Below, piece by piece: positions 15,193 to 41,642 of a DNA stretch of 64,000 nucleotides. The stretch's first letter is position 1; every line of letters starts with the position of its first letter. Origin of the DNA: Halomonas piscis (GTDB taxonomy: Bacteria > Pseudomonadota > Gammaproteobacteria > Pseudomonadales > Halomonadaceae); the NCBI RefSeq assembly GCF_031886125.1, contig NZ_CP119391.1:2914001-2978000 (forward strand), given 5' to 3'. Under the pieces are notes generated by a model that was not told the DNA's origin, did no database searches, and saw only the letters and a program-made list of their open reading frames with translations. The position numbers and the translations under genes are program-made.

Positions 15193-16515
15193 TTACCCTA
15201 AATATTTGATCATAACACCCGCGGCGACGGCAGACCCGATAACACCGGCCACGTTGGGCCCCATGGCGTGCATCAAGAGAAAATTATGCGGGTTGGATTC
15301 CAGCCCCACTTTGTTGGAGACTCGCGCCGCCATCGGCACGGCCGACACGCCGGCTGACCCGATCAGCGGATTGATCGGATGCTTGCTTATCACGTTGAGT
15401 AGCTTGGCCATCAGCACACCGCACGCGGTACCTATGGCAAAAGCCACGATACCCAAGCCGAGAATGCCGAGGGTTTCTACTGCCAGAAAGCGATCGGCCA
15501 TCAGCTTGGAGCCTACCGAGAGTCCGAGAAAGATGGTCACGATATTGATCAGCGCGTTCTGTGACGTCTGCGATAGCCGTTCGACCACGCCGCATTCGCG
15601 CATCAGGTTGCCAAAGCAGAACATCCCCAGCAGCGGAGCCGCATCGGGGAGAAACAGCACCACCAGAATCAATAGAGCCAGCGGAAAAACGATCTTCTCG
15701 AGCGTCGAAACCGGGCGCAGCTGAGTCATGGCGATGGCGCGCTCTTTCTGCGACGTCAGGGCGCGCATGATCGGCGGCTGGATCAGCGGAACCAGCGCCA
15801 TGTAGGAGTACGAGGCAACGGCAATCGCGCCCAAAAGCTCCGGTGCCAGCAGGCTCGACACATAGATTGAGGTGGGGCCGTCGGCGCCGCCGATAATGGC
15901 GATGGCCGCCGCCTGATCAAGGCTGAAGTCCATCCATCCCATCACCGTCATGAGCACTGCACCAAGCAGCGTGGCAAAGATGCCGAACTGCGCCGCCGCT
16001 CCCAGAAACAGCGTGCGTGGATTGGCCAGCAGCGGCCCGAAGTCGGTCATCGACCCCACACCCATGAAGATCACCAGCGGGGCGATACCGGAGGCAATCG
16101 CCACGCGGTAGAACTGGTACAGCATGCCGTGCGCGTAGCCCGCCTCCATGGCCACATCATTGGCGGAGCGTAAGAGCGACGGCGAGGCGTCACCGCTAAG
16201 CGCCTCCCCCAGCGCCTGGCGCCAAGCTTCCAGGTCGCCGCTCGCCGGCAGCGCTACCTTCAGGGCATCGGCCATTGGCTTGAGCAGTTCGGGAGGTCCC
16301 TGATGGATGGCCTGTTCGGCGGCCGACAGCGCAAGCCCGGCCTCGGGAATATTCGCCAGGATACCGCCAAACCCGATCGGCACCAGCAGCAGAGGCTCAA
16401 ACTTCTTGGCAATGGCAAGCCACAACAGCAGCAGACCAATACCCAGCATCACGGTCTGGCCGAGGCTCAGGTTATATAGCCCGGAGCCGTACCAAAGTGT
16501 CAGTATCTTTTCCAT
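15193..16515 (-). CDS. oadB: Oxaloacetate decarboxylase, Na+-pumping beta subunit
   Basis: A 440-residue integral membrane subunit that decarboxylates the carboxybiotin and couples this to Na+ export. It shows the Na+-channel motif [10 protein letters not shown] (about residues 220-229) and the conserved [13 protein letters not shown] and [17 protein letters not shown] blocks near the C-terminus. A soluble insertion (about residues 65-130, ending [14 protein letters not shown]) follows the first helices, as in many proteobacterial OadB proteins. It follows oadA by 9 bp and completes the oadG-oadA-oadB unit. Confidence 0.95.
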
Positions 16516-16524
16516 GAGGTGTCC

Positions 16525-18339
16525 TTAAAGCACGATCAGCGCGTCGCCCACGGATACGCTGTCGCCTTCCGCTACCTTGACCTCGGAAACCGTGCCGCTC
16601 TGGGGGGCCCGCACTTCGGTTTCCATTTTCATGGCTTCAAGAATAAGCACTACCTCGTCCTCGACAACGCTCTCGCCGGGCTTGACGTTGATCTGGAAGA
16701 TATTGCCGGCCAGCGGCGCATTGATGCTTTCTCCGCTGGAGGCCGCCAGTGCCGGCGCTTCGCTGTCGGCAGACGGCGCCGGTGACGACGGCTGCACCTG
16801 GGAAATATCGCCGCCTTCGCTCACCTCGACCACATAAGATGCGCCGTTGACGCTGATCGTATAGGTCTCGGGGCCGGCAGGCGGGGCCGGGCGCTCGGCT
16901 TTCTCGGAGACCGCTGGCGAAGTCTCGGACGCTGCCTCACCCGGTACAGGCTCAAAGGCGTCGGGGTTATCGCGGTTTTGCAAGAACTTAAGCCCGATCT
17001 GAGGAAAGAGGGCGTAGGTCAGAACGTCGTCGATATGGCGTTCGCCCTCGGCCAGGCGAATATCTTTCTGCTCGGCGGTCTCGTCCAGCTCATCGGCAAG
17101 CCTGGCCATCTCGGGCGACAGAAGGTCGGCGGGGCGCTCCGTCACGGGGTCACCGCCCTCCAGGACTCGTTTTTGGAGCGCTTCATCGAAGGGCGCGGGG
17201 GCGGCACCGTACTCTCCCTTGAGCAGGGCCTGAACTTCCTTGGAAATCGACCCATAGCGCTCGCCCATCATCACGTTCATCAGCGCCTGGGTACCGACGA
17301 TCTGGGACGTGGGAGTCACCAGCGGAATCAGCCCCAGGTCGTCCCGCACGCGCGGAATTTCGGCCATGACCTCATCCAGCTTGTCGCCCGCTCCCTGCTC
17401 CTTGAGCTGATTTTCCATGTTGGTCAGCATGCCGCCGGGCACCTGGGCGACAAGAATGCGCGAATTGACGCCCTTGAGCGAGCCTTCAAAGGCCGCGTAT
17501 TTGCCGCGCACCTGGCGAAAATAGGCGGCGATATCCTCAAGCTGTTCAAGGTCCAGCCCGGTATCCCGGTCGGTACCTTCAAGCATCGCCACGATCGACT
17601 CGGTAGGGCTATGGCCATAGGTCATCGACATCGAGGAAATGGCGCTATCGACGTTGTCGATCCCGGCTTCTATGGCCTTGAGGATGGTGGCCGTCGACAG
17701 GCCCGTGGTCGCGTGACAGTGCAGCTGGACGGGGATGTCCAGCGTGGCCTTGAGCCGGGTGACCAGCTCATGGGCCTCGTAGGGCCTGAGCAGACCGGCC
17801 ATGTCCTTGATCGCCAACGAGTCGGCGCCCATGGCAGCAATGGTGTCGGCAAGTTCCACCCAGCTTTCCAGGGTGTGCACCGGGCTTTGGGTATAAGACA
17901 GCGTCCCCTGAGCATGGCCGTCGTTGGCCTTGACGGCGCCAATGGCGCGCTCCAGATTGCGCGGGTCGTTCATCGCGTCAAAAACGCGGAACACGTCGAT
18001 GCCGTTGACCCTGGCCCGCTCGACAAAACGGTCTACCACGTCATCGGCATAGTGGCGATAGCCAAGCAGGTTCTGCCCGCGCAGCAGCATTTGCTGCGGC
18101 GTGTTGGGCATGACTTCCTTTAGCGCCCGGATGCGCTCCCACGGATCCTCGCCCAGATAGCGAATACAGGCATCGAAGGTAGCGCCGCCCCAGGATTCCA
18201 ACGACCAGAACCCCACCTGGTCAAGCTTTTCCGCGATGGGCAGCATATCGTCCAGGCGCATGCGCGTGGCGAGAAGCGACTGGTGGGCATCGCGCAGGAC
18301 GACGTCAGTGATACCTAGCGGGCGTTTCGTCTCGCTCAT
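16525..18339 (-). CDS. oadA: Oxaloacetate decarboxylase alpha subunit (biotin carboxyltransferase)
   Basis: 604 residues. It transfers CO2 from oxaloacetate to biotin in the cytosol. The N-terminal HMGL-like TIM barrel (about 1-290) carries the metal-binding start [13 protein letters not shown] and the substrate region [17 protein letters not shown] domain follows (about 300-460). After an Ala/Pro/Ser-rich linker (about 475-520), the biotinyl domain has [11 protein letters not shown], with Lys at about 571 as the biotin site. Length and layout are standard. The 55-bp gap from oadG and 9-bp gap to oadB indicate an operon. The pump converts oxaloacetate to pyruvate while building a Na+ gradient, which would drive the nearby Na+-linked TRAP carriers. 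Confidence 0.96.
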
Positions 18340-18841: not shown

Positions 18842-19582
18842 TTAGCTCCCCTCGGCGGCGGCTGCCACTCCTTCTGCCAGCACCTGAACGCTATCGATGA
18901 CGGGAATCTGAGTGGTCAAACCATCGCGGATCACGGAGAGCTCCGTGCATGCCAGTACCAGCACGTCGGCGCCGCGGTGGTAAAGTTCTTCCGCTGCCTT
19001 GGTGAAAGCCGCAAGCGTTTCGTCATGATGGCCCTGGCCGCGCTTGACGGCACGGATTATCTCCAGCACCGGCGCTTCGTCTTCGGGGTACAAAAGCGAC
19101 AGGCCGCGCTCTTCGATAAAGTTTTCATAAAGGCCGATTTTACGCAGCGCCGGCGAGCAAAGCATACCCACTTTGGCCCCGGGCGCCTGGCACGCAACCT
19201 CGTCCAGCGTCATCGCCACAATATGCCAGACGGGAATGTCCACCGCCTTCTGGGCATCCTGCCAGTAGTAGTGAGCGGTGTTGCACGGCATCACCAGGAA
19301 ATCGGTGCCGGCCTGCTCCAGACGACGGGCCATCGCGGCAATGGTCGGGCCGGGGCTCTCCCCGGTTCCTTCAATCAGCGCCTTGATACGCGAAGGCACC
19401 TTGGGGTTGTTATCGACCAGCATGTGCACATGCTCGATATCATCTTCGGCCGGCGTGGCATCAATCACACGCTGCATAAACGTCAAGGTAGCGTCGGGAC
19501 CCATGCCGCCCAGCACGCCAACCATTGCATGACGGTCAGTATGCTGAGCCTCACTAGCGTTATGATCAGCGGTCTTGTTCAT
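18842..19582 (-). CDS. Aspartate/glutamate racemase-family protein, possible cysteate racemase
   Basis: A 246-residue cofactor-independent amino-acid racemase. The two catalytic Cys are visible: MPCNTAHYYW (about residue 99) and LVLACTELSV (about 212), with an N-terminal VGVLGGMGPDAT loop. The gene follows the TRAP large permease by 21 bp and is last in the cuyA operon. In that context the likely substrate is D-cysteate or a related sulfonated amino acid, since cysteate is a close structural analogue of aspartate. That assignment is inference; a general aspartate or glutamate racemase is the alternative. A gap of 180 bp to oadG follows, with no gene seen in it. Confidence 0.85.
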   Translation of the reverse strand: MNKTADHNASEAQHTDRHAMVGVLGGMGPDATLTFMQRVIDATPAEDDIEHVHMLVDNNPKVPSRIKALIEGTGESPGPTIAAMARRLEQAGTDFLVMPCNTAHYYWQDAQKAVDIPVWHIVAMTLDEVACQAPGAKVGMLCSPALRKIGLYENFIEERGLSLLYPEDEAPVLEIIRAVKRGQGHHDETLAAFTKAAEELYHRGADVLVLACTELSVIRDGLTTQIPVIDSVQVLAEGVAAAAEGS

Positions 19583-19603
19583 GGCTTGCCTATTACCTCT
19601 CTG

Positions 19604-20884
19604 TTAGAAGCCCATGATGCGGGGCAGCATCAGCGACAGCTCGGGGAAAAATGCCAGCACCAGATCAATCACTACCATGGAGCCAACCAAGGGCAGAGCA
19701 CGCACGGAAATCCGCTCGATCGAGACGTTGGCAATGCTTGAACTAATAAACATGTTTTCGCCCAGCGGCGGCGTAGAAAAGCCGATGCCCAGGCTCACTA
19801 CCAGCACAATGCCGAAGTGGATAGGGTCTACCCCCAGCTCCATCATGACGGGCAGCAGCACCGGAGTGACGATCATGATGGTCGCCAGAATCTCTATGAA
19901 CATCCCGACTATCAGCAGGAACCCTATCACCAGTAACCATATTAACCACAGGCTATCGGTAATATAGAGAATACCCTGAGCAATCATCGCCGGTATCTGG
20001 TGCTCTACCAGTATGCGGCCGAAGGCAGTGGCGGTAAACATGATGATAAGCACGCGCCCGGTGAGCCAGGTCGTGCTTTGAAAGGCCTCATTAAGGCCGC
20101 GCAGGGATGACTCCTTGTGAATAAAGACACCCACAAACAGAGCATAAAAAATCGATACCACGGCGGCTTCGGTGGGAGTAAACATGCCGGAGTAAATACC
20201 GCCCAGTATCACTACCGGTGCCATTAGTGACCAAATACCGTCCTTCAGAGCCTTGGCGACACGTTTGACGTCGTAGCTGTGCCCTTCTGTTTGATAGCCG
20301 TTGCGTTTGGCCGCGATATAGTTGGCTGTCACCAACCCTACACCGAGCAGCATCCCGGGGATCACCCCCGCCATGAACATCGCCGAGATCGACTCGTTGG
20401 CCGTCACGCCATAGATGATCAACGGCATACTGGGAGGGATGACGACGCCTAGCCCCCCGGCCGTTGCGGTCAGCGCAGCCGGATAGCTCTTGCCGTAACC
20501 CCGCTCGATCATCGCCGGAATTACCAGCATCCCCACCGCCGCCGTTGTGGCCGGACCGGAGCCGGAAATGGCACCAAAAAACATGCAGGCAATGACGGTA
20601 GCCGCGCCAAGGCCGCCGGCAGCGGGCCCGGCAAGCTCTTCGGCGATATAGATCAAGCGTCGAGCAATGCCCGCATCACCCATCAAGGCGCCGGCAAGAA
20701 TGAAAGAGGGTAGTGCCATGAGGGGGAACGAGTTGATAGCGGAAAAGGCCAGCTCTATCAGCGAGCTTATGTCCTGCCCGCTGACCACGTAGACCGCCAT
20801 GGAAGCCACGCCCAGGGCAACTACTATTGGTGCGCCAAGCAGCAGCAGCACTCCGAAAAAGGAAAAAAGGACTGTTGCGGCCAT
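19604..20884 (-). CDS. TRAP transporter large permease (DctM family), sulfonate operon 1
   Basis: A 426-residue membrane protein with about 12 hydrophobic segments. Typical TRAP-M motifs are AISGSGPATTAAVGMLVIPAM (about 110-130) and GGIYSGMFTPTEAAVV (about 225-240). Together with the small permease (5 bp upstream) and the binding protein it forms a Na+-coupled high-affinity importer. It sits between cuyA-linked enzyme genes and a racemase, so a sulfonate such as cysteate, cysteinolate or dihydroxypropanesulfonate is a plausible substrate (inference). Its paralogue is at 29572. Confidence 0.93.
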   Translation of the reverse strand: MAATVLFSFFGVLLLLGAPIVVALGVASMAVYVVSGQDISSLIELAFSAINSFPLMALPSFILAGALMGDAGIARRLIYIAEELAGPAAGGLGAATVIACMFFGAISGSGPATTAAVGMLVIPAMIERGYGKSYPAALTATAGGLGVVIPPSMPLIIYGVTANESISAMFMAGVIPGMLLGVGLVTANYIAAKRNGYQTEGHSYDVKRVAKALKDGIWSLMAPVVILGGIYSGMFTPTEAAVVSIFYALFVGVFIHKESSLRGLNEAFQSTTWLTGRVLIIMFTATAFGRILVEHQIPAMIAQGILYITDSLWLIWLLVIGFLLIVGMFIEILATIMIVTPVLLPVMMELGVDPIHFGIVLVVSLGIGFSTPPLGENMFISSSIANVSIERISVRALPLVGSMVVIDLVLAFFPELSLMLPRIMGF

Positions 20885-20889
20885 TGTTC

Positions 20890-21447
20890 TTACCCCTTGT
20901 CCGTGTTCGAGTCAGTATTATTTTTCTGATAGGACTCGTCCTCAGTAATCTTGTCGGTTTCCTCCTTTTCCACATCACCCGGTTCAATACCTTTTACCAG
21001 CTTGAGATACTGAACCTGCAAAACACGAAATGCCATCAGGGTAAAAGCAATAGGGAAAATAAAGTAGACGTAAGCCAGAGACCAGCCCAACGCCGGAGAT
21101 TTATAGGGAAACTCAAGCAGCAGATCAATAAGCTCAAGACTCTTGTAAGCAAGCACCAGGCAAAAACCTGCCCAAATAAGGTCTACAAATAACAGCAGCC
21201 CCTTGGCCATATTCTTGGGAAGCAGGTTGATATGCACCTGCAGCCGATTGTGCGCACTCAGGTGAGCCGCATGAGTCGCCCCTAGAAACACAAACCAGAC
21301 AAAAGAATAGCGTGCCAGCTCTTCAATCCATGACATGCCAATGCCAAGCACCATCCTCATGACTACCTGAACAAAGAGCAGGATGACGAATACGGCAAGC
21401 AGGGCGCGGCAGGCGTAGTCTTCTATATAATTGAGTTTTGATAACAC
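20890..21447 (-). CDS. TRAP transporter small permease (DctQ family), sulfonate operon 1
   Basis: 185 residues with four hydrophobic helices and the DctQ hallmark RYSFVWFVFLGATHAAH (about 45-61). The C-terminal tail of about 30 residues is acidic and hydrophilic. It lies between the binding-protein gene (80 bp upstream, with a hairpin in the gap) and dctM (5 bp downstream). Confidence 0.9.
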   Translation of the reverse strand: MLSKLNYIEDYACRALLAVFVILLFVQVVMRMVLGIGMSWIEELARYSFVWFVFLGATHAAHLSAHNRLQVHINLLPKNMAKGLLLFVDLIWAGFCLVLAYKSLELIDLLLEFPYKSPALGWSLAYVYFIFPIAFTLMAFRVLQVQYLKLVKGIEPGDVEKEETDKITEDESYQKNNTDSNTDKG

Positions 21448-21486
21448 GAGAGCATCCTCCCCTCAGGGGATAAGTGATCATAGCCA

Positions 21487-21513
21487 GGCCGGGCAGCAGC
21501 ATGCTTCCCGGCC
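21487..21513 (-). other. Intergenic hairpin between dctP and dctQ (operon 1)
   Basis: A GGCCGGG / CCCGGCC stem (21487-21493 with 21507-21513) lies in the 80-bp gap after the binding-protein gene. It has no T-tract on the minus strand, so it is more likely an mRNA 3'-end stabiliser or attenuator that keeps the binding protein more abundant than the permeases. The second TRAP operon has a hairpin at the same place. Confidence 0.55.
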
Positions 21514-21527
21514 CGGCCCTACTTCAC

Positions 21528-22511
21528 TCAGCGGCCCAAAGCTTTTTGCATTTCATCGAAGGCTTCCTTGCCGCCGATCTCGTCATAAAACTCCGGCCAG
21601 ACTTCTTCCCTGGCAATTTCAATCCATTTGTCCTCATTTTCCAGAGTCGATACCTCGACGCCTTCTTCTTCCATGTTCGCGCGTGCCTTGGGCGCTTCGG
21701 TCAGCTGGAACTGAAGCGCATACAGCTGCGACTCCAGGCCTGCCCGATCAATAATCGCGCGCTCTTCTTCCGATAGCTTCTGATAGGTTCTAGCCCCCAT
21801 CACAATAGGCTGTAGCGAGTACTGGTAATGCACTTCCGTGAGGTAGTCCTGCACCTCGTAAAACTTCATCGTATTGTTGACGATATAAGGATTGTCTTGC
21901 CCATCGATGACGCCCTGTTGCAGCCCGGTAAAGACTTCCGGCCAGGACATGCTGATGGGATTGGCTCCCCAAGCCTCGTAGGTAGAAACCATCTGTTCGT
22001 TCTGGGGCAGCCTCACCTTGAGACCGTCCAGCTCCTCTAGCGTGGTTATCGGACGCTGGGAATTCGTCAGGTAACGAAAGCCTGAATACAGCCAGCTGAC
22101 AATGTGGACGCCGGCGTCTTCCTCGGCAATATTGTTCCAGCGATCGGCCAGCGTACCGGTAGTCGCCTTGACGGCATCCGCATGGCTGCGGATGGCATAG
22201 GGCATGGTCAGAGCGCCCAGGCGCGACGCGTAGGGCGTTAGGTTACCTACGCCTACCAGGGCAAAATCCAGCTTGCCGATGCGGGTACCCTGGATCATTT
22301 CTGTCTCGGCGCCCAGCTGGCCGCCGGGGTACAGCTCTACCTGCATTTCGCCATCGGAAAGCTCTTCGACCATTTCCTTGAAGCGCTGCGCCAGCGCCCC
22401 CTGGTCCGAGTCCATGGGATCTCCCATGCCGAGCTTGAACGTCTCGGCCTGGGCGGCCTGAACGCTCAGGAGGGAAAAGACGGCAGTTGTTAATAATGCT
22501 TTCTTGTACAT
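21528..22511 (-). CDS. TRAP transporter substrate-binding protein (DctP family), sulfonate operon 1
   Basis: About 327 residues from the ATG at 22511; an earlier in-frame ATG would overlap the upstream gene and spoil the signal peptide. A Sec signal (MYKKALLTTAVFSLLSVQA) is cut near AQAE. The mature domain has DctP landmarks: the conserved Arg in LDGLKVRLPQNE (about 152) that binds the ligand carboxylate or sulfonate, and the WPEVFTGLQQGVIDGQDNP segment. It is periplasmic. It starts 31 bp after the aminotransferase gene and belongs to the cuyA operon. Confidence 0.93.
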   Translation of the reverse strand: MYKKALLTTAVFSLLSVQAAQAETFKLGMGDPMDSDQGALAQRFKEMVEELSDGEMQVELYPGGQLGAETEMIQGTRIGKLDFALVGVGNLTPYASRLGALTMPYAIRSHADAVKATTGTLADRWNNIAEEDAGVHIVSWLYSGFRYLTNSQRPITTLEELDGLKVRLPQNEQMVSTYEAWGANPISMSWPEVFTGLQQGVIDGQDNPYIVNNTMKFYEVQDYLTEVHYQYSLQPIVMGARTYQKLSEEERAIIDRAGLESQLYALQFQLTEAPKARANMEEEGVEVSTLENEDKWIEIAREEVWPEFYDEIGGKEAFDEMQKALGR

Positions 22512-22542
22512 TGTTATCACTCCAGTCGATAAGCGGTGAGTG

Positions 22543-23751
22543 TTACACAGTGTTGGATTTGCTGATGACTTCATTCATAGCATCGTCCATCAGCTGAATA
22601 ATGTCGTCGCAGTCTTTCTCATCAAACGTCAACGGTAGGCGCAGGTCACAAAGCGTGGCCAATACACGATCGGCGTTGGGCAGTGGCCGAGTCGCGGGGA
22701 GATACCCCCAGCTATCATAGCGGCTGGTGTAATCTGCCGGCTGTGCCTGGCCGAACCACTTGACCGGGATACCGCGCTCGGCACAGCCAGCGACGAAGCC
22801 GGCAATATCTTCTCGGGTCAGCGACGGCAGACGAAACTGGATCGAACTGCCGACAAAGTCTTCCTTTTCATGGCGCGGAACGCGCTCAAAACGCTCCATG
22901 CGGGACAGGCCGGCATCCATGCGGTGATAGAGCGCATTCCAGCGCTCCTTGCGCGCTTCAAGCTCGGCCAGCTGCGGCCGCAGAACGGCTGCCCGAAGGT
23001 CATCCATCCGCCCGCTCATATTGGGCGTCACCAGTCGGGTATCGCCATACCCTGCCGCTTCCGGCGCGGCCAGATGACGATCGTAAAACATGTAAGACCC
23101 CGAGAGGATGACCGCTCGGCGCATCACTTCGGGATCGTCCGAACTCAGCACCCCGCCTTCACCCGAATTCAGGTGCTTATAGGTTTGCGTGCTGTAGCAG
23201 CCTACCTTCCCGAAGGTGCCGCTTGGCTTGCCGGCAAAGTTGGCCCCCAGCGTATGGGCGCAGTCCTCGATCAGGGTAATCCCATGGGTCTCACATACCG
23301 CCATAACAGCGTCCATGTCGCCAATGTGGCCGCGCATATGCGATAGCACGAAGAAGCGCGCGCCGGACTCCCGCGCTGCCGCCTCAAGGTCATCCGGATC
23401 AATGGTGGTATCGTCCAGGATGTCGACCAGTACGGCCTCCCCACCTGCGGCATGAATACTGCCCGGTACGGGCGACAGCGTGAAGGCATTACACAGCACG
23501 GCATCGCCGTGCTGAAGCCCGCAGGCACGCAGCGCCAGCTGCAGCGCATAGCCGCCCGAGGCACAGGCCAGCGCGAAAGGCACGCCAAGCGCGTCGGCAA
23601 ACTCTTGTTCAAAGAGTGCTGTCTCGCCCTTCTCGCCTTCTACCAGGTTATAGCGGTGCAGGCGCCCGGTGCGCATGAGGGCCACTGCCGCGTCAATCGA
23701 GGCGTCGGAAAGCGGCTCTTGCTGGGTGAACGATTTCGAGAAACGGCGCAT
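22543..23751 (-). CDS. DegT/DnrJ/EryC1-family PLP aminotransferase in the cuyA operon
   Basis: A 402-residue PLP enzyme. The catalytic Lys is in YSTQTYKHLNSGEGG (about residue 192), the PLP-stacking and Asp region is LIEDCAHTLGA (about 156-166), and the N-terminal GGYALQLALRA binds the cofactor phosphate. DegT enzymes normally aminate keto-sugars, so its place between an HpsN-like dehydrogenase (10 bp upstream) and a sulfonate-type TRAP transporter is unusual. I infer a transamination that links a keto-sulfonate (for example 3-hydroxy-2-oxopropanesulfonate) with an amino-sulfonate such as cysteinolate, or the reverse. No sugar-nucleotide genes lie nearby, which argues against a role in surface polysaccharide. 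Confidence 0.85.
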   Translation of the reverse strand: MRRFSKSFTQQEPLSDASIDAAVALMRTGRLHRYNLVEGEKGETALFEQEFADALGVPFALACASGGYALQLALRACGLQHGDAVLCNAFTLSPVPGSIHAAGGEAVLVDILDDTTIDPDDLEAAARESGARFFVLSHMRGHIGDMDAVMAVCETHGITLIEDCAHTLGANFAGKPSGTFGKVGCYSTQTYKHLNSGEGGVLSSDDPEVMRRAVILSGSYMFYDRHLAAPEAAGYGDTRLVTPNMSGRMDDLRAAVLRPQLAELEARKERWNALYHRMDAGLSRMERFERVPRHEKEDFVGSSIQFRLPSLTREDIAGFVAGCAERGIPVKWFGQAQPADYTSRYDSWGYLPATRPLPNADRVLATLCDLRLPLTFDEKDCDDIIQLMDDAMNEVISKSNTV

Positions 23752-23761
23752 TTGGCGTACC

Positions 23762-25078
23762 TCAATAGCGCTGCTGACGGTGGACCGGAAACTGCCAGTC
23801 CTCGTCGGGAAAATATTTGATCAGACGCCAGTCGCAGGCCCGGGCATGCCCTTCCATGCCTTCCACCCGGGAAATGCGTGAACCCACCGCGCTGAACGTG
23901 CGGTTGGCCTCTTCGCTCAGCTGCTGGGTCGTCAGCACCTTCATGAACTTGTGCACGTTCAGCCCGCCGGAATAGCGGCCAGCCCGTTTGGTGGGAAGGA
24001 TATGGTTGGTGCCGGAGCACTTGTCGCCGTGTGTGACCGTGCTGCCCTCGCCCAGAAACAGCGACCCATAGTTGGACAGGTTCTCTTTCCACCAGTCCAG
24101 ATCCTCGCACAGGACTTGCAGGTGCTCACACGCGTAGCGATCGCTGATCTCAACGATTTCTTCACGGCTGTCACCGACGATGACTTCACCGTGATCACGC
24201 CAGGCAGCATGAACGACGTCAGCGTTGGGCATGTCATCGGCGACCTTGGGCACCAGCTCAATGACTTTTTTCCCTACCGCTTCGCTGGTGGTGAACAGCC
24301 ACACCGGCGAGTTGGTCCCGTGCTCGGCCTGAGACACCAGATCGACGGCAATGGTCATCGGATCCGCTTGATCATCGGCGATGATGGCCGACTCGGTGGG
24401 GCCGGCAAACACGTCGATACCCACCTGACCAAACAGCAAACGCTTGGCTTCGGCCACGTAAGCGTTGCCCGGGCCAACGAGAATATCTGCCTCGCGGCCG
24501 TCGAAGAGGCCAAAGGCCATGGTCGCCATGGCATGCACGCCGCCCATCTCAAGAATCACGTCGGCGCCGGCCACATCGAGCGCATAGGCCACGGCCGGAT
24601 TGATGCTGTCGCCGCGCGGCGGCGAGCAGGCGACCACGTGAGGCACGCCTGCCGCCTTGGCAGTGGCGACGCTCATCAGCGCCGATGCCGCATGGGCAAA
24701 ACGCCCGCCGGGGATATAACACCCGGCGCAGTTAACGGGCAGCACTCGCTGACCAAGGCGAACGCCGGGCTCGGTCTCGATCTCGAAAGAGGTGAGACTA
24801 TCGCGCTGCGCGTCGGCGAAGCGCCGAATCTGACGATGGGCAAAATCGATATCGTCTTTCACCGACTGGGGCACGCTATCGATAAGCTGCTTGCGCTTGG
24901 CGTCGCTGAGCGTGAAATCGGAGGTCCAGCCGTCAAACTTTTCAGCATAGTCACGTACCGCGGACTCCCCGCGCTTGCGGATATCCTCCAGCATTTGCTG
25001 CACCGAGGCAGTGATGCGCTGATCTTCGGAGGCAGCTTCTTCTCCTCCCTCCGCCGGCTTAAGATACTGAATTGTCAT
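23762..25078 (-). CDS. hpsN: HpsN-like (histidinol-dehydrogenase family) sulfonate dehydrogenase
   Basis: About 438 residues from the ATG at 25078, which has GGAG six bases upstream. Histidinol-dehydrogenase fold with LPVNCAGCYIPGGRFAHAAS (about 110-129), GPTESAIIADD (about 215-225), the catalytic AACEHLQV-like segment RYACEHLQVL (about 330), and Zn-ligand regions near SAVGSRISRVEGMEGHARA. It is closest in style to HpsN, which oxidises (R)-2,3-dihydroxypropane-1-sulfonate to (R)-sulfolactate with two NAD+. The biosynthetic HisD role is unlikely because no his genes are present. Because cuyA comes directly before it, an amino-alcohol sulfonate (cysteinolate to cysteate, chemically parallel to histidinol to histidine) is a reasonable alternative substrate (inference). 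Confidence 0.85.
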   Translation of the reverse strand: MTIQYLKPAEGGEEAASEDQRITASVQQMLEDIRKRGESAVRDYAEKFDGWTSDFTLSDAKRKQLIDSVPQSVKDDIDFAHRQIRRFADAQRDSLTSFEIETEPGVRLGQRVLPVNCAGCYIPGGRFAHAASALMSVATAKAAGVPHVVACSPPRGDSINPAVAYALDVAGADVILEMGGVHAMATMAFGLFDGREADILVGPGNAYVAEAKRLLFGQVGIDVFAGPTESAIIADDQADPMTIAVDLVSQAEHGTNSPVWLFTTSEAVGKKVIELVPKVADDMPNADVVHAAWRDHGEVIVGDSREEIVEISDRYACEHLQVLCEDLDWWKENLSNYGSLFLGEGSTVTHGDKCSGTNHILPTKRAGRYSGGLNVHKFMKVLTTQQLSEEANRTFSAVGSRISRVEGMEGHARACDWRLIKYFPDEDWQFPVHRQQRY

Positions 25079-25169
25079 TGTCTTCTCCGAAATGGAGCTA
25101 AAGTTCAAAGGATCGTTGAAGTTGCCCAAAGACACTTAGCCGCTCAGCGGCCCGGCTCAGGCCTGCGCG

Positions 25170-26183
25170 TTATGCCTGGTAGTCAGGAAGCCCAAAGGCG
25201 TTGGTATAGCCAAACAGGGCAACGCTTCCGCCGGTGTGGAGGAAGACAACGTCTTCACCTTCCTTGAAGTGCCCCTGACGAATCAGGTCGATCAGCCCGG
25301 CCATCCCCTTGCCGGAATACACCGGATCGAGCAGGATGCCTTCGTGGCGCGCCAGCAAGGTCACCGCTTCCACCATGCTGTCGGTGGGGATACCATAGCC
25401 GTCGCCGACGTAGTCGCAGTTGGCAACGACCTTGTCGCGCTTGACCACGTCGGACAGCCCCAGCTTGGCTTCCGTCTTCTGCGCCAGGGCAAAGACGTTG
25501 GCTTCCTGCTTGTCCTTCGGAGCGCGCACGCCGACACCCAGTATCGGGATGCCCGCGTTGCAGGCCTCAAGGCCTGTCACCAGCCCGGCCTGCGTGCCGG
25601 CGCTGCCGGTTGCGTGTACCAGGTGATCGATCTGCAGCCCCATGTCGTTCGCCTGCGTCAGCAGCTCCAGCGCTGCGTTCACATAGCCTAGCGCGCCGAT
25701 TTCATTGGAACCGCCGCCGGGAATAATGTAGGGCTTCTTGCCTTCGCTTTTCAGCTGCTCGGCCAGCTTTTCCATCTCGGCTGCCATGTCGGCACCTCCG
25801 GGACGCTTGCTGACGGTAGCGCCGTGCAGCTGGTCGAGGAGGACGTTACCGTTGTAGTTGTAGTCGGGAGCCTCACTACCGGTACGGTCTTCGAGTAGAA
25901 TGTGGCAATCCATTCCCAGCTTGCAGGCCGCGGCAACGGTCTGGCGGGCATGGTTTGACTGGGTAGCCCCCTGGGTGATGATGGTGTCGGCGTTTTGCTC
26001 CTGGGCATCGGCCATCAGAAACTCGAGCTTGCGCGTCTTGTTACCGCCGGTGGAAAGCCCGGTGCAGTCGTCGCGCTTGATCCACAGGCGCGGCCCGCCC
26101 AGCAGGCGGCTCAGATTGTCCATGGGCTCTAGCGGTGTCGGTAGATGGCCAAGCCGAACACGGGGGAAACGGGAAAGATGCAT
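25170..26183 (-). CDS. cuyA: L-cysteate sulfo-lyase
   Basis: About 337 residues, PLP fold type II of the ACC deaminase/D-cysteine desulfhydrase family. The start at 26183 (GGAGG upstream, giving [20 protein letters not shown]) fits CuyA proteins better than the ATG at 26213. The PLP Lys is in [12 protein letters not shown] (about 46) and the substrate loop is TQSNHARQ. The reaction is L-cysteate to pyruvate, sulfite and ammonium in the cytosol. It is the first gene of a minus-strand operon (cuyA, hpsN-like, degT-like, dctPQM, racemase) divergent from a LysR gene. D-cysteine desulfhydrase is the main alternative, but the sulfonate setting favours CuyA. Confidence 0.88.
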
Positions 26184-26353
26184 ACGGGCCTCCAGGCGGG
26201 TGGTTTTGTGCATAGCGTGCTCTCATCGCAACCATCGGCTAAATAACGGAATACTACGTTTCACAACCGATCGGTCTGCCCTCAACGCTAGCTCTCAGGT
26301 CTTGCTGCTTGCCAATGCCAAGTTACTCACTAGCGGTTAATTTTTTGCATGTA

Positions 26354-26396: not shown

Positions 26397-27302
26397 ATGA
26401 AAACGGAGTGGCTGGAAGACTTCTTTGCCTTGATCGAGGCCGGGACCTTCTCCCAGGCCGCCGAGAGGCGCCATGTTACCCAGCCGGCCTTCTCGCGCCG
26501 TATACGGCAGCTGGAAGAGTGGCTCGGCGCTGAGCTGATCGATCGCACTTCGTCTCAGCTAACGCTTACCCCCCACGCCCGAACGTATGAGGTGCCGATG
26601 CGCAACTGGCTCGCCGGGCTCTATGCCATGCGCAGCCGCATACGCGCCGACGTGGAGCGCGGCCCGCGCGCCATTCTGACCACCCAGCACACCCTGACCG
26701 TCAGCTACCTGCCGCAGCTGCTGCGCTACTTTCGCAACCGGGCGCCTGAGGCGCGATTACAGGTCAGGACGGCCGACCGCATTGACTGCATCCACGATTT
26801 CCAGCGCGGCGAAGCGGATCTGCTGCTGTGTAACGAGGTGGTGGATTCACCGCTGTTTTTGTCTCAGGACGATGTCGAACGCGTCACCCTGGGCACCGAA
26901 CAGCTGATTCCGGTATGCGCAGCCGACCGCCTGGGCCGGCCGATATACGATCTGGACAGTGAAGCCCGCCTGCCGCTTATCGGCTACGATGACAACAGCT
27001 TTCTGGGCAAGATTCTGGCAGCGCCCTACCTGCTGAACCTGCAGCGCCGCTATGAAATTGAGCTGGTTTGCGAAACGGCCTTCACCATCGGCATTCGTGA
27101 GCTTTCACTGGCCGGACTCGGCGTCGGCTGGTTGCCCCACGGCCTGATTGAAGAAGACCTGGCGGCGGGCAAGCTCGTCTCTCTGCTGGAAGTGCTCGGC
27201 GGACCCAAGCTGGTAGTGGCATGCTACACCCACCCCCAGGACGACGCCTCTAGCGTTAATCAGCTCTGGCAGCTGCTTAACGAGCGTCCACCTACCCTAT
27301 AA
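26397..27302 (+). CDS. LysR-family regulator of the cuyA operon
   Basis: 301 residues. The N-terminal winged HTH (WLEDFFALIEAGTFSQAAERRHVTQPAFSRRIRQLEE) is standard LTTR, split here as residues 3-22 and 23-40. A periplasmic-binding-like co-inducer domain follows (about 90-300). It is divergent from cuyA with a palindrome in the shared promoter, so it most likely senses the imported sulfonate or cysteate and activates the operon (inference). It is distinct from the GcvA-like LysR at 49988. Confidence 0.88.
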   Translation: MKTEWLEDFFALIEAGTFSQAAERRHVTQPAFSRRIRQLEEWLGAELIDRTSSQLTLTPHARTYEVPMRNWLAGLYAMRSRIRADVERGPRAILTTQHTLTVSYLPQLLRYFRNRAPEARLQVRTADRIDCIHDFQRGEADLLLCNEVVDSPLFLSQDDVERVTLGTEQLIPVCAADRLGRPIYDLDSEARLPLIGYDDNSFLGKILAAPYLLNLQRRYEIELVCETAFTIGIRELSLAGLGVGWLPHGLIEEDLAAGKLVSLLEVLGGPKLVVACYTHPQDDASSVNQLWQLLNERPPTL

Positions 27303-27362: not shown

Positions 27363-27914
27363 GCGAGGCACAAACACGGCACCAGTGCCACGCTAAGACA
27401 GGCTGGCCACGACGGCCACGGCAGCCCGCTGACGGAAGGCGACGTCCTGATGGTAAGCGAGGCCGCCTCCCAGCGCGCCAATAGCCAGCACGCGCCGGAG
27501 GAGGCAATACCGGACTATCGGGCGACGCCCGAGCTGGCGCTGATTCCGGGCGCGCAGATTGCCGAGTTCGACGGCGCCAGCCTGTACGCAGCATTCAACC
27601 GGCCCTGGCACATTGACGACCGGGCTGACCGCATGGGCGTGCGCCTTTGTGGCCCGGCGCTTCGCTGCCGTCTTGACCGGATGATTTCGGAAGGGCTCGG
27701 GCTGGGCGCCGTCCAGGTCCCGTCGGACGGCCAGCCCATCGCCCTGCTCAACGATCGCCAGACCATTGGCGGCTACCCGCGGCTGGGAGCGCTCGCCCCT
27801 CTGGCCTGCGCCCGCCTGGCGCAGTGCATGCCGGGGGACACCGTCACCCTGAAGCCCGCATCAGCCGAGGCGGCGCTTGCCCACTACCGCCGCTTTATCA
27901 GAAGTTTGCACTAA
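27363..27914 (+). pseudogene. Remnant of a biotin-dependent carboxyltransferase/5-oxoprolinase subunit C (PxpC/KipA) gene
   Basis: Only the C-terminal half of the AHS2 (KipA-like) domain is present. The recognisable core is GLGLGAVQVPSDGQPIALLN followed by DRQTIGGYPRLGALAPL, with a C-terminal GDTVTLKP motif. The frame is closed upstream by TGA at 27360-27362, and no N-terminal half (normally about 150 more residues) or PxpB partner is present. The ATG at 27450 could still start a 154-residue fragment. It ends 25 bp from the convergent tauZ-like gene. It is probably a decaying gene left by a deletion. Confidence 0.75.
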
Positions 27915-27938: not shown

Positions 27939-28973
27939 CTACATCCCTGCCAGGCCAAAATAAATGCAGGCCAACACCAGCAGCAGCAAGAAAAGCGTTT
28001 CCGCCATCATCAGGATGACCGGCTTCCAGCCCACCACGGCAAGCTTCTGGAAAGATGTCTTGATACCCAGCGCCGCAATGGCCGTGACCAGACACCAGCG
28101 CGACAGGTCGGTAATCGCCTCGGTCGCCATCGTGGGAATCCAGCCTAGGCTGTTGATCAGCACGATGACGACAAACGCCACCAGAAAGCTGGGCAGAAGC
28201 GGCATTTTCCTGCCTCCCTCTTCCTGACGGCTGTTGCGGAAAATAAACATGAACACCATGACAGCGGGAACCAGCATCGCCACGCGCATCAGCTTGACGA
28301 AGGTAGAAATATCGCCGGTACCTTCGGAAATCATGTAGCCGGCCCCCACCACCTGCGCGACGTCATGGATGGTACCCCCCAGGAGAATCCCGGCATCGCT
28401 GTCGCTCAGGTTCAGCGCAGAGACGAGCAGCGGATAAACGATCATCGCCATGGTAGACAGGGTCGTCACCCCGGCGACGGTCATGATGGTATTGCGCTCG
28501 TGCGTTTCATGGCGTGGCATAACGGCGGATAGCGCCAGCGCCGCTGAAGCGCCGCATATCGCGACCGAGCCGCCGGTCAGCAGCCCCATGTCACGCTCAA
28601 GCCCCAACACGCGGGCCAGCAGAGCGCCGATTGCAATCGTCAGCGTGACGCCGCCAATCACCGTCACCAGGGGACCGATGCCCAATTCGGCCACCTGCTC
28701 GAGCGTGATACGCACCCCGAGCAAGGCCACCCCCAGGCGCAGTATCGTGCGTGCCGAAAACTCGATACCGGCCAGGCAGCGACCTTCTTCCGAGAGAAAA
28801 TGCAGCGTCATACCGAATAGCAAGGCATATAGCAGCGTGGGACCGCCGTAGTTATCGGCAATAAACGTCGTGGCCAGGGCAATAGTGACGCAAATAATGA
28901 CCCCGGGCATGACTTGCTGGCCCCTGGCAAACAGGTTGGGCAACGACAGTCGCGTTGGCTCGAGACTCGCCAT
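27939..28973 (-). CDS. tauZ: YeiH/TauZ-type putative sulfite/sulfate exporter
   Basis: A 344-residue inner-membrane protein with about ten hydrophobic segments of the UPF0324 (YeiH) family. Motifs include LRLGVALLGVRITL (about 80-93), GGSVAICGASAALALSAVMP (about 130-149) and GTIHDVAQVVGAGY (about 200-213). Homologues called TauZ or CuyZ accompany taurine and cysteate genes in other bacteria and are proposed to export sulfite or sulfate made by desulfonation. It follows the usp gene by 22 bp in the TRAP operon 2 unit, the order known from taurine clusters. The transported ion is not proven for the family. Confidence 0.8.
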   Translation of the reverse strand: MASLEPTRLSLPNLFARGQQVMPGVIICVTIALATTFIADNYGGPTLLYALLFGMTLHFLSEEGRCLAGIEFSARTILRLGVALLGVRITLEQVAELGIGPLVTVIGGVTLTIAIGALLARVLGLERDMGLLTGGSVAICGASAALALSAVMPRHETHERNTIMTVAGVTTLSTMAMIVYPLLVSALNLSDSDAGILLGGTIHDVAQVVGAGYMISEGTGDISTFVKLMRVAMLVPAVMVFMFIFRNSRQEEGGRKMPLLPSFLVAFVVIVLINSLGWIPTMATEAITDLSRWCLVTAIAALGIKTSFQKLAVVGWKPVILMMAETLFLLLLVLACIYFGLAGM

Positions 28974-28995
28974 CTTTTTATCACTCCTGGAACTA

Positions 28996-29484
28996 TCAGC
29001 TTGCGTTGGGCATCACCACCACCGGCACCCGCGCGCGTTTGATCACGCCCTTGGTGACCTTGCCGGCGTAGGACGCCATTTGATGTTGCTTGTTGGCCGC
29101 CATGACGATCATGCTGATGTTTTCCTGGCTGGCGAAATGGGCAATCACCGAAGCGGGATGCCCTTCAAGCACGGTATTGACAATGCGGCCTTCTTCCATG
29201 GCCTTTTTCAGCGGCGGGTACTGCTGACAGGCAGCGTCAACGTTTTCTGTCAGCTTTTCGCGCCGCTCCCTGATGCGCTGCTGCATCATCGCTTCCAGAG
29301 CCTCGCGATCACGGATGTTGATTTTCAGCGTGTTGAGCACGTCACCCGATAGCGGCTTGATAACGTGCAAGACATGCATATCTGCGCCGGTTGCGTTAGC
29401 CAGAGCGAGGGCTTTTTCCAATACGTGACCATCGTTTCCGCGCAAGCCGACGCTGCACAAGACAGACTCATGTTCTTTCGCCAT
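28996..29484 (-). CDS. Universal stress protein, taurine operon
   Basis: 162 residues, Usp domain, from the ATG at 29484. The upstream leader contains a short tandem repeat of GGAGATAGT units ending in GGAGGAGG, a very purine-rich ribosome site. The protein matches the paralogue at 14617 over its whole length (NIRDREAL and MIVMAANKQHQMASYAGK). It lies between dctM and the tauZ-like exporter, a location also seen in Rhodobacter taurine clusters. Confidence 0.88.
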   Translation of the reverse strand: MAKEHESVLCSVGLRGNDGHVLEKALALANATGADMHVLHVIKPLSGDVLNTLKINIRDREALEAMMQQRIRERREKLTENVDAACQQYPPLKKAMEEGRIVNTVLEGHPASVIAHFASQENISMIVMAANKQHQMASYAGKVTKGVIKRARVPVVVMPNAS

Positions 29485-29571
29485 GCTTCCTCCTCCACTA
29501 TCTCCTCCACTATCTCCTTCCCTACCTCGCCCCATCTCAAGCACGCCGTAGAGACGTTTTTAGCTATGGCT

Positions 29572-30912
29572 TTAATAACCCAGCAAACGAGGTAGCCACA
29601 AGGACAGCTGAGGGAAGTAGGCAATTACAAAAATGGCCGTGATCGAAGCCGCCGCAAAGGGCAGTGCCTTGAGGGAGATCTCCTCCACCGAGCATCCCCC
29701 GATCCCCGAAGCGACAAAGAGGTTTTCCCCCAGCGGCGGCGTCTGAAAGCCGATGGCCAACGAGCACACCACCACAATGCCGACGTGAACCGGGTCCATC
29801 CCCAGCATATACATGATCGGCAACAGCACCGGGGTAAGGATCATGATGGCGGCCAGGGTTTCCATGAACATGCCCACAAACAGCAGAAAGCCGATAATCA
29901 TGGCCCAGATCAGATAGAGGTTATCCGTAACCGCCAGCATGACTTCGGCAATATAGGCCGGCACCTGGTTCTCAACGAGCAGGCGGCCAAAGACCGTCGC
30001 GGTAAACAGAATAAGCAGCACCCGCCCGGTAATCCAGGTCGTGGTCTCCAGCGTTTTCAGCGCCGGCTTAAGCTCCAGTTCCTTGTGCAGGAAAATCCCT
30101 ACCACCAGGGTATAGACGATTGCCACCACGGCGGATTCGGTCGGTGTAAAAAGGCCGCTATAGATACCGCCCAAAATGATGATAGGTGCCAGCATGGACC
30201 AGATACCCTTGCGCAGGGTGGTGCGAATATCCGCCATGGACCAGTGTTCGCTCAGCCCGCGGTAGCCACGCTTGCGTGAAATGAAATAGTTGACCACAAG
30301 AATGAATCCGGCAATGACCATGCCGGGAATAATGCCGGCAATAAACAGCTTGGGAATGGACAGTGTCTGGAAGGGGCCGTGCTCGGCAATCGCCTCGGAG
30401 GGCGGCTGCAGCCCCATGCCCGAGATGCCGAAAATCACCATCGGAATAGAGGGCGGGATCACCACGCCCAGCCCCCCCGTTGAGGCCGTCACCGCCGAGG
30501 CGTAGCCGCGGTCATAGCCGCGGTTCGACATCGCCGGAATCATGAGCATGCCCACGGCCGCGGTCGTTGCCGGGCCGGAGCCGGAGATGGCGCCAAAAAA
30601 CATGCAGGCAAACACCGTCGCCGCCGCCAGGCCGCCCGATACGGGCCCGGCAAAGGCTTCTGCTATGTCGACCAGCCGCTTGGAAATACCCGATACTTCC
30701 ATCAGCGCGCCGGCAAGGATAAAGGCCGGCAGCGCCATGAGAGGGAAAGCCCCCACTGAGGTAAAGGCCATTTGGACAAAGGCCAGCGGATTTTCCCCCA
30801 GGGTAAGATAGGTGGCCAATGCGGCCACGCCCAGCGAGATCGCAATGGGAGCGCCCAGCACCAGCAGCAGGAAAAACACGCCAAACAGAACATAGACAAG
30901 CGTCGTGACCAT
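29572..30912 (-). CDS. tauM: TRAP transporter large permease, taurine operon
   Basis: A 446-residue DctM-family permease with about 12-13 hydrophobic stretches. Diagnostic motifs are MFFGAISGSGPATTAAVGML (about 108-127) and GGIYSGLFTPTESAVVA (about 245-261). Compared with the paralogue at 19604 it has a 20-residue insertion around 170-190 (LQPPSEAIAEHGPFQTLSIP). It is 2 bp from the small permease gene. The setting with tauY, tauX, a TauR-like regulator and a tauZ-like exporter indicates taurine or a related sulfonate as substrate (inference from synteny). Confidence 0.9.
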   Translation of the reverse strand: MVTTLVYVLFGVFFLLLVLGAPIAISLGVAALATYLTLGENPLAFVQMAFTSVGAFPLMALPAFILAGALMEVSGISKRLVDIAEAFAGPVSGGLAAATVFACMFFGAISGSGPATTAAVGMLMIPAMSNRGYDRGYASAVTASTGGLGVVIPPSIPMVIFGISGMGLQPPSEAIAEHGPFQTLSIPKLFIAGIIPGMVIAGFILVVNYFISRKRGYRGLSEHWSMADIRTTLRKGIWSMLAPIIILGGIYSGLFTPTESAVVAIVYTLVVGIFLHKELELKPALKTLETTTWITGRVLLILFTATVFGRLLVENQVPAYIAEVMLAVTDNLYLIWAMIIGFLLFVGMFMETLAAIMILTPVLLPIMYMLGMDPVHVGIVVVCSLAIGFQTPPLGENLFVASGIGGCSVEEISLKALPFAAASITAIFVIAYFPQLSLWLPRLLGY

Positions 30913-30914
30913 TT

Positions 30915-31478
30915 TTATTCTCCCCCGTTTTCTTTCAGCTGCGGCTCATCCCGCTCTTTTTTGTCTATGCTGTCGAGCTCTTTCTCCTCAGCGTTTGGAG
31001 CAGATTTTTCCTTAAAGAACTTGAGGTAGTTCTTCTGAACAACTCTTATCGTCATTGCCACAAAGGCAATGGGCAATATGAAATAAAAGTACTTCATCGG
31101 GACGCCCATGGTTTGGGAAGTCCAGAAAGCGTTCATTCTGTTGAACACAAAGTCATAGCTCAAATATATAAAGACGGCATTAAAGCCAATCCAGACAATA
31201 TCTGTGAGCAGCTCACAAAACGTTGCCACCCACCGGGGAAACAGTTTGAACTGAAAAGTGATACGGTTATGAGCCGACAGCTTCGTACCATAGGCGGCGC
31301 CCAGATAGGCAAACCAGACAAAGGCGTAAGTTGCCAGCTCGTCGCCCCAGGGTATAGAGTAGCTGAAGATATTCCTCATCACGATTTGCACAAACAAAAG
31401 CGCAACAAACCCTACCAACAGAAGCTGGCAAAGATACCCTTCTATATTATCTATAAAATAAAGCAGCTTCTTTTTCAT
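30915..31478 (-). CDS. tauL: TRAP transporter small permease, taurine operon
   Basis: 187 residues from the ATG at 31478 (MKKKLLYFIDNIEGYLCQ). The four-helix DctQ motif YAFVWFAYLGAAYGTKLSAH (about 48-67) is clear. The acidic and Lys-rich tail (about 150-187) is cytosolic. The gap of 95 bp from dctP contains a strong hairpin. Confidence 0.9.
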   Translation of the reverse strand: MKKKLLYFIDNIEGYLCQLLLVGFVALLFVQIVMRNIFSYSIPWGDELATYAFVWFAYLGAAYGTKLSAHNRITFQFKLFPRWVATFCELLTDIVWIGFNAVFIYLSYDFVFNRMNAFWTSQTMGVPMKYFYFILPIAFVAMTIRVVQKNYLKFFKEKSAPNAEEKELDSIDKKERDEPQLKENGGE

Positions 31479-31517
31479 ATCAGCTACCACCTGACAAGAC
31501 ACTCGAGAAAGTGGCAC

Positions 31518-31543
31518 CCGGGCTTTTCATTCGAAAAGCCCGG
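31518..31543 (-). other. Intergenic hairpin between dctP and dctQ (operon 2)
   Basis: An 11-bp perfect stem, CCGGGCTTTTC / GAAAAGCCCGG, with a 4-nt loop lies 30 bp after the binding-protein stop. No T-run follows on the minus strand. As in operon 1, it probably stabilises the dctP message or partly terminates transcription, giving excess binding protein. Confidence 0.7.
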
Positions 31544-31573
31544 ATATTTGAGTGGTTAATCCTGAAAGAAGGC

Positions 31574-32590: not shown

Positions 32591-32718
32591 AATGTCCTCC
32601 AGACCTTGTTATTATTTTGATGGCTGTCGTCGGGCAGCAATGTCCGGCCCGACGGCGGCATCAGAAACATGAATATGCTGACCCGTCTTCTTTTACGCAC
32701 TTCTGGCGCCGTTCCATA

Positions 32719-32749
32719 GTGCCAGCTGGCCACCTGGTTTGGTGCCAGC
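32719..32749. promoter_or_regulatory. Direct repeats GTGCCAGC, putative MocR (TauR) operator
   Basis: Two copies of GTGCCAGC start at 32719 and 32742, 23 bp or about two helical turns apart, between the divergent TRAP operon and the MocR-type regulator. MocR regulators such as GabR and TauR bind spaced direct repeats. The intergenic stretch 32591-32861 holds no gene. Confidence 0.5.
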
Positions 32750-32861
32750 AAGGAGAAGCTATGCCACCATCTAGTCTTTAGTCGCATCCTGCCGACTACT
32801 ACCGAGTGCCATAATGGCCCGCTGTCCTTACTTCACCTGGCAAGCCAAGGGGTCTGACGCC

Positions 32862-34331: not shown

Positions 34332-34337
34332 GCCGGC

Positions 34338-35786: not shown

Positions 35787-35845
35787 AGCGGGCTCCTCGC
35801 GATCGGGTGGCCTTGTCCTGGAACGGACAGTTCCAGCGTGAAAAC

Positions 35846-37518: not shown

Positions 37519-37524
37519 CGCGAC

Positions 37525-39261: not shown

Positions 39262-39313
39262 TATCAGCTGAACAGAGCCGTCATCAGCTATACGAATACA
39301 GGAGTGGCACCTA

Positions 39314-40170: not shown

Positions 40171-40172
40171 TA

Positions 40173-40857: not shown

Positions 40858-40876
40858 CCAACGCGGCTCGACCGCC

Positions 40877-41635: not shown

Positions 41636-41642
41636 CGGTGCG

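Follow-up and report, generated by a model that had tools for sequence, protein, structure and literature searches.

A probable operon for cysteinolate catabolism in Halomonas piscis

Which sulfonate feeds an operon that joins the enzymes of cysteate dissimilation to a HisD-like dehydrogenase and a DegT-type aminotransferase? The question arises from a 64,000-nucleotide stretch of Halomonas piscis DNA (contig NZ_CP119391.1, positions 2,914,001 to 2,978,000; termed the window, whose coordinates are used below). The host genome, a single contig, spans 3,227,066 bases and is 99.84% complete. Positions 18842–26213 carry, on the minus strand, seven open frames in the order cuyA, hisD-like gene, degT, dctP, dctQ, dctM, and cuyB. 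A first-pass annotation had listed the same content (an HpsN-like dehydrogenase, a DegT enzyme, a racemase, CuyA, and a tripartite ATP-independent periplasmic (TRAP) importer), and all are indeed present, open, and in the order given. Spacing ranges from an 80-base gap to a 32-base overlap, so a single transcription unit is likely.

Two of the products are D-cysteate sulfo-lyase, CuyA (25170–26213; 347 residues; NF052482, 574 bits against a cut-off of 450), and cysteate racemase, CuyB (18842–19582; NF052483, 269 bits against 190). Both pass curated cut-offs, as in known cysteate dissimilation; what differs here is that their operon also encodes a dehydrogenase of the alcohol-to-acid kind and a transaminase. 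The former, a proposed four-electron cysteinolate dehydrogenase yielding cysteate, is encoded by the hisD-like gene (23762–25135; PF00815, 435 bits), and the latter is a pyridoxal-phosphate enzyme of the DegT type (22543–23751; PF01041, 185 bits). The importer comprises the solute-binding protein DctP (21528–22574; PF03480, 230 bits), the small permease DctQ (20890–21447; PF04290, 86 bits), and the large permease DctM (19604–20884; TIGR00786, 379 bits). The true start of the hisD-like gene is likely 25078, giving 438 residues and a protein that begins like its relatives. That of dctP is likely 22511, which would place a signal-peptide-like stretch at the amino terminus.

The operon probably serves catabolism of cysteinolate (2-amino-3-hydroxypropane-1-sulfonate). 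In the proposed route, the TRAP transporter would import cysteinolate, and the HpsN-like enzyme would oxidize the alcohol group at C3 to the acid by way of a bound aldehyde, using two NAD+ (nicotinamide adenine dinucleotide). The cysteate so formed would probably be the L (R) enantiomer. CuyB would convert L-cysteate to D-cysteate; CuyA would split cysteate to pyruvate, sulfite, and ammonium; and a YeiH-type exporter would let the sulfite out. DegT most likely would interconvert cysteinolate and the ketone 2-oxo-3-hydroxypropanesulfonate, making the ketone, or the other enantiomer, usable. The path from cysteinolate through cysteate to CuyA had been proposed in the first-pass annotation; it remains the best-supported reading and has gained comparative evidence, whereas the racemase direction and the role of DegT stand less firmly. 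According to PMC11382572, D-cysteate is the preferred substrate of CuyA, and CuyB interconverts the two enantiomers. The racemase therefore most likely supplies D-cysteate, probably the reverse of the direction first proposed.

The dehydrogenase is central to this proposal. Among solved structures it scores best with CpHpsN of Cupriavidus pinatubonensis (8v35, 533 bits), followed by an (R)-dihydroxypropanesulfonate (DHPS) dehydrogenase (8wwe, 458 bits), versus at most 251 bits for the histidinol dehydrogenases in the PDB. With HpsN of the hpsNOP operons (C. pinatubonensis, Ruegeria pomeroyi) it shares the PF00815 fold and the catalytic and sulfonate-binding residues, at 58% identity to the Cupriavidus protein, and the hps loci of Leisingera and Sulfitobacter likewise have TRAP import.

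The neighbors, in contrast, are different. Genomes were sampled by seeding on the dehydrogenase alone, avoiding DegT as a starting point, and neighbors were counted within about 1.5 kilobases (kb). Among 201 genomes of the family, 28 match at 1e-135: 18 at 81–100% identity to the window enzyme and 14 at 54–56%, including four with both. The class sample of 369 genomes gives 14 matches, the host itself among them, and adds 13 loci at 50–58% and a single further close relative (74%). Identity to the window enzyme separates the two types without overlap (71–100% for the close, or cassette, type; at most 58% for the HpsN type), and their partners switch accordingly. Close-type loci contain degT in 19 of 19 cases, cuyA in 14, and hpsO or hpsP in none. 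HpsN-type loci contain degT and cuyA in 0 of 25 and hpsO in 23, a set in which three loci end at contig ends and which includes 12 fetched of the 14 HpsN-type loci from the family (Halomonadaceae). Within the same genus, only one other genome of the family sample has a match, and that is of the HpsN type; for this reason, the cassette may have been acquired in this genome.

Phylogeny places the window enzyme outside HpsN. In a tree of 79 rows (75 of them different), the close-type enzymes form one clade of 43 rows, near-copies and twice-sampled genomes included, with support of 100/97. Characterized HpsN proteins fall on the other side (99/97), together with the enzymes of alphaproteobacterial cassettes. 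Constraining all cassette enzymes together, alphaproteobacterial with gamma/delta, is rejected (p-AU, from the approximately unbiased test, 0.0006). The same gene set thus includes enzymes of two separate HpsN-like lineages, which leaves two histories: assembly of the set on two occasions, or an origin of HpsN within the cassette enzymes.

The residues compared include those for sulfonate recognition and catalysis in HpsN, taken from PMC11382572. His126, Glu318, His319, Asp352, Lys353, and His359 (CpHpsN numbers) are kept in all 43 cassette-type rows, the window enzyme included; Ser226 of CpHpsN is Thr in the window enzyme, as in some HpsN. The type differs from HpsN at 31 alignment positions, and the gamma/delta cassette clade shows His/Gln350, Gln/His321, Thr240, and Cys415. 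Phe/Tyr350 of HpsN is His/Gln in 43 of 43 close-type enzymes, and loop 348–354 moves when substrate binds HpsN (PMC11382572). Position 321, near Glu318-His319, is Gln/His in all 49 cassette enzymes, whichever their lineage, and Glu/Thr in 25 of 25 HpsN. These counts exclude loci L001, L002, L019 (hisD in two pieces), L102 (the same as the window), and L009 (two pieces, by length), and place L106 and L110, which have neither neighbor type, in no group. The alignment behind the position-126 comparison lost L014, L041, and L045 (short extraction) and L071 (length); L009 and L019 were not extracted, and L002, the window's own copy, was omitted. The split hisD readings occur in the Marinomonas locus L019 (8666–9983) and upstream of degT on a Polaromonas plasmid (L009).

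Histidinol dehydrogenase also performs four-electron chemistry on the same fold, and the window protein passes the hisD model TIGR00069 (423 bits against a cut-off of 243.8), which cannot separate HisD from HpsN-like proteins. The true HisD of this genome, however, lies elsewhere (C1:1492585, 558 bits) and has Tyr where the window enzyme has His126; two HisD-like proteins of other operons have Met there. The second, true HisD and the retained sulfonate-recognition histidine together rule out a plain histidinol dehydrogenase.

How widely does this gene set occur? A scan of named genomes with the DegT alignment retained the best 80 of at least 585 loci, a choice that, with contig ends, biases the counts. 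Cassette-type hisD is present in 29 of the 80, accompanied by cuyA in 15 (in one locus as a fragment where the contig ends), cuyB in 15, and either in 18. Hosts include Halomonas, Cobetia, Vibrionaceae, Oceanospirillaceae, a SAR324 metagenome-assembled genome (MAG), Desulfovibrio, Desulfobacula, Desulfotignum, and a Mailhella MAG; the last four are anaerobes that make sulfide. Twelve plasmids match DegT with at least 80% coverage. Seven of the eight opened carry cuyA, degT, cuyB, and hisD, with a TRAP importer, a taurine-type ATP-binding cassette importer, or none; the eighth lacks the set. (The Polaromonas plasmid is counted as a cassette through a homology search that showed its cuyA and hisD.) Recurrence across so many lineages argues that the arrangement is more than chance.

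The neighborhood of these loci bears on a different route, from DHPS. Here the HpsN-like enzyme would make R-sulfolactate, an unlinked dehydrogenase would yield sulfopyruvate, and DegT would form cysteate for CuyB and CuyA. The CuyA branch is described in R. pomeroyi, where the aminotransferase is unidentified (PMC11382572); the named HpsN sulfonate-site residues are kept; cuyA-degT pairs occur without hisD nearby; and an SlcC-like gene lies near one cassette. Yet hpsO and hpsP are missing from all 19 seeded loci and, with suyB, comD, comE, slcD, and comC, have no match in any of the 29 cassette loci. The window likewise contains no homologue of hpsO, hpsP, suyB, comD, comE, slcD, comC, or slcC by tblastn (E 1e-15), bearing out the first-pass statement that HpsO/HpsP, sulfolactate dehydrogenase, and SuyAB are absent from this region. 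The whole genome contains no SuyB at 1e-80 (12 of 47 panel genomes contain it), and distant relatives that could serve: one of SlcD, at 39% identity, and four of SlcC, at no more than 39%. No ComC-type protein was found at 1e-10 and no ComE at 1e-5, both searches without a positive control.

A chosen panel of 47 genomes, searched whole, tells further against DHPS. Thirty contain the cassette-type enzyme (one in pieces), and seven of these hold a second enzyme, of the HpsN type, at 50–56% identity. In three of the seven (Halomonas cerina, Enterovibrio calviensis, and Grimontia celer) the HpsN-type enzyme lies within about 5 kb of suyB. That the same cell has two dehydrogenases, each with its own partners, argues for two substrates. 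We consider the DHPS route unlikely, and a plain DHPS operon is disfavored by both neighbors and genome content.

A second type of locus points to cysteate as the place where two branches meet. In five Oceanospirillaceae loci (L020, L023, L027, L032, and L040), a decarboxylase gene lies near hisD-degT. The L020 protein has as its best solved relatives cysteine sulfinic acid decarboxylase (CSAD; 314 bits) and GADL1 (308 bits), and the other four are 65–76% identical to it. All five genomes contain Xsc over its cut-off. In four of them, neither CuyA nor CuyB passes its threshold; in that of L023, CuyA does and CuyB does not. This pattern fits a decarboxylase tail that would convert cysteate to taurine in place of CuyB and CuyA. 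With both tails attached to hisD-degT, the simplest common intermediate is cysteate. The CSAD/GADL1-type route to taurine is thus joined to hisD-degT in these five loci; the window differs in having CuyB and CuyA, with its own Xsc-Pta about 15 kb from the operon. CSAD-type decarboxylases act on the L-form and need no racemase, which suggests that the dehydrogenase makes L-cysteate. In agreement with this, HpsN is R-specific, and a CpHpsN crystal has L-cysteate bound in the manner of R-sulfolactate (PMC11382572).

These loci bear also on whether the operon is for cysteate alone, with the HpsN-like and DegT enzymes acting on an unrelated compound. CuyA and CuyB do suffice for cysteate (PMC11382572). 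But 11 of the 29 cassette loci pair hisD with degT and have no match to cuyA or cuyB in the sequence available (some contigs end early), the CSAD-like gene adjoins them in five of those 11, and the dehydrogenase keeps the sulfonate-site residues His126 and Lys353. An operon for cysteate alone is very improbable.

A third set of neighbors concerns the amine. A dimethylglycine-dehydrogenase-like protein (domains DAO, GCV_T, and GCV_T_C) is encoded in nine of 43 cassette loci and none of 56 others: L003, L006, L008, L031, L049, L051, L061, L075, and L093. (Here the 43 include five loci without hisD nearby, L028, L031, L038, L051, and L062, and L093, without degT.) The query was the L031 protein, to which the other eight are 57–88% identical; a tenth match, in L032, reaches 29% only. 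Six of the nine also encode a trimethylamine-methyltransferase-like (MttB-like) protein, again absent from the 56 others. In L061 and L049 the dimethylglycine-dehydrogenase-like gene directly precedes hisD-degT, L031 and L051 have no hisD nearby, and in Pseudomonas and Paracoccus genes for electron-transfer flavoprotein and one-carbon metabolism lie alongside. Such N-demethylase-like neighbors suggest an amine substrate and provide a lead toward N-demethylation of methylated cysteinolate. Neither they nor the CSAD-like decarboxylase is accounted for by the DHPS route.

What, then, does DegT do? Lys192, which we take to be the lysine that holds pyridoxal phosphate, is invariant within TYKHLNSGEGG. 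The enzyme has the fold, lysine, and GEGG motif of the DegT/DnrJ/EryC1/StrS sugar aminotransferases, but reaches no NCBIfam family cut-off (best PseC, 118 bits against 423.5), so it was rejected as a known nucleotide-sugar enzyme. It further differs in the motif SHMRGH, which in five solved relatives reads VHLYSA, VHMCGS, VHLFGS (twice), and VHMAGL. All 61 relatives compared keep Arg140 and His142; the five solved enzymes differ there. The AlphaFold model (predicted local distance difference test, pLDDT, 90; best Foldseek match 5w70) confirms the fold, which is shared with sugar and cyclitol transaminases, and adds nothing on substrate. The closest relative is from Halomonas garicola (92%). 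Cysteinolate and 2-oxo-3-hydroxypropanesulfonate are both reported from algae (PMC11131964), and interconversion of the two by DegT is plausible.

A related proposal makes the ketone the imported substrate: DegT would aminate it to cysteinolate, and the dehydrogenase, CuyB, and CuyA would follow. In its favor, degT is paired with hisD in 19 of 19 seeded loci, and the closest solved relatives of DegT include, by name, transaminases of cyclitol and sugar ketones. Against this, one locus (L093) has cuyA, cuyB, and hisD without degT, cysteinolate itself is reported to be abundant in algae (PMC8703288), and the N-demethylase-like neighbors point to an amine. Import of the ketone appears quite unlikely. 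The earlier suggestion that DegT links keto and amino forms is plausible; L093 and four cuyA-degT loci without hisD nearby speak against it. As proof that DegT is dispensable, L093, of which the analysis covered the locus alone, is weakened, since a paralogue could substitute: in two of six Rhodobacterales panel genomes (G045 and G046), the hisD-like gene adjoins cuyA and does not lie within 10 kb of the glmSU-linked degT.

The DegT tree has 85 rows, excluding sequences of 350 residues or fewer, those with stops, and L002. Thirty of the rows adjoin glmS/glmU instead, mostly in Rhodobacterales, often with a phosphatase of the haloacid dehalogenase (HAD) family and without hisD nearby. Examples are L025, L035, L044, L069, and L089, where a biosynthetic role is possible. 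Another arrangement is found in a Desulfofustis MAG (L078, 7563–11188): DegT with an HpsO-like short-chain dehydrogenase (53–56% identity) and a SerC-like aminotransferase. The genome of L078 contains no HisD-like enzyme at 1e-100.

Several observations weigh against the assignment to cysteinolate. CuyA exceeds its cut-off in only 20 of the 30 cassette-bearing panel genomes. Four loci (L028, L031, L051, and L062) have cuyA-degT with no cassette-type HisD anywhere in the genome at 1e-100, genomes G016 and G013 having only more distant HisD-like proteins; such genomes stay unexplained by the model. Cassette L093, as noted, lacks degT. The SlcC-like gene that accompanies one of the 29 cassettes, in Oceanisphaera (L021), lies about 1.9 kb past cuyB and is 59% identical to the hydroxyacid dehydrogenase of a sulfolactate locus, as the DHPS route predicts; this is the only locus with a sulfolactate enzyme alongside. 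Six alphaproteobacterial cassette enzymes retain Phe350 and most other HpsN-like residues, leaving position 321 as the sole mark common to both lineages, and common descent can fix such separating positions too. L-Cysteate inhibits CpHpsN weakly (half-maximal inhibitory concentration 2.4 mM; PMC11382572), so tolerance of an amine in that site would not amount to proof of an amine substrate. For the L020 decarboxylase, glutamate decarboxylases follow closely (281–291 bits), and in NCBIfam it matches diaminobutyrate and PanP-type decarboxylases best, far under cut-off. Algal cysteinolate is named D- and L- alike in paper titles, which makes the enantiomer ambiguous. Finally, DctP gives no hint of substrate: the PDB entries nearest to it are DctP proteins for which no substrate is named, and it was set aside as a guide. 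The only named sulfonate-binding relative listed, isethionate-binding 8t9t, scores 112 bits against a top score of 222.

Each enzyme family here is already known; the gene combination and the HisD subfamily seem new. No catabolic enzyme for cysteinolate or cysteinolic acid was found in the open-access passages covered, but subscription papers lay mostly outside that search, and it would be unsafe to claim a first description. A broader scheme can be drawn, tentative and on balance doubtful. It posits a widespread route for cysteinolate and N-methylated cysteinolates, in aerobes and in Desulfovibrio/Desulfobacter-type sulfidogens, built on two HpsN-like lineages and a DegT clade that would interconvert cysteinolate and 2-oxo-3-hydroxypropanesulfonate. 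The same clade at glmS-glmU (often with the HAD phosphatase, in Rhodobacterales) would make the cysteinolate head group of roseobacter sulfur-aminolipids.

If cysteinolate is the substrate, the hisD-like subfamily beside degT would be a marker that separates cysteinolate from DHPS turnover in ocean data, and an algal sulfonate would be tied to anaerobes regarded as sulfide producers. Homologue counts based on CpHpsN alone may mix the two kinds of enzyme. PMC11382572 retained 272 of 1000 homologues by requiring hpsO and hpsP nearby, and the present enzyme class would fall outside that set.

The flanking genes include candidates for regulation and export. A LysR-family regulator (26397–27302, plus strand; PF00126 and PF03466) diverges from the operon and is its probable regulator; a homologue diverges from cuyA in L012 and L016. 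The YeiH-family exporter (27939–28973, minus strand; TIGR00698, 146 bits, under the cut-off of 232.6) is probably the exit for sulfite. Homologues 75–77% identical occur in cassette loci L012–L014, directly after cuyB in L012.

The exporter begins a second sulfonate-type region (27939–45569), whose content points to use of taurine or a related sulfonate as well. It includes another TRAP importer (29572–32590), a MocR/PdxR-like regulator (32814–34331), a flavin adenine dinucleotide (FAD) oxidoreductase like aminophosphonate oxidases (34338–35786), Pta (41643–42665), and Xsc (42750–44570). CobS- and CobT-like cobaltochelatase subunits (36550–39261) are both under their cut-offs. Transposases flank the sulfonate region, IS1380 on one side (12610–14028) and IS5 on the other (39329–40078). 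Beyond cuyB lie the alpha and beta genes of an oxaloacetate decarboxylase of sodium-pumping type (15193–18339, minus strand). A CT_A_B carboxyltransferase fragment, the last half of the domain and of the 5-oxoprolinase/urea amidolyase type, occupies 27450–27914, and a TmpA-like 2-trimethylaminoethylphosphonate dioxygenase (558 bits, over cut-off) is encoded at 48726–49877.

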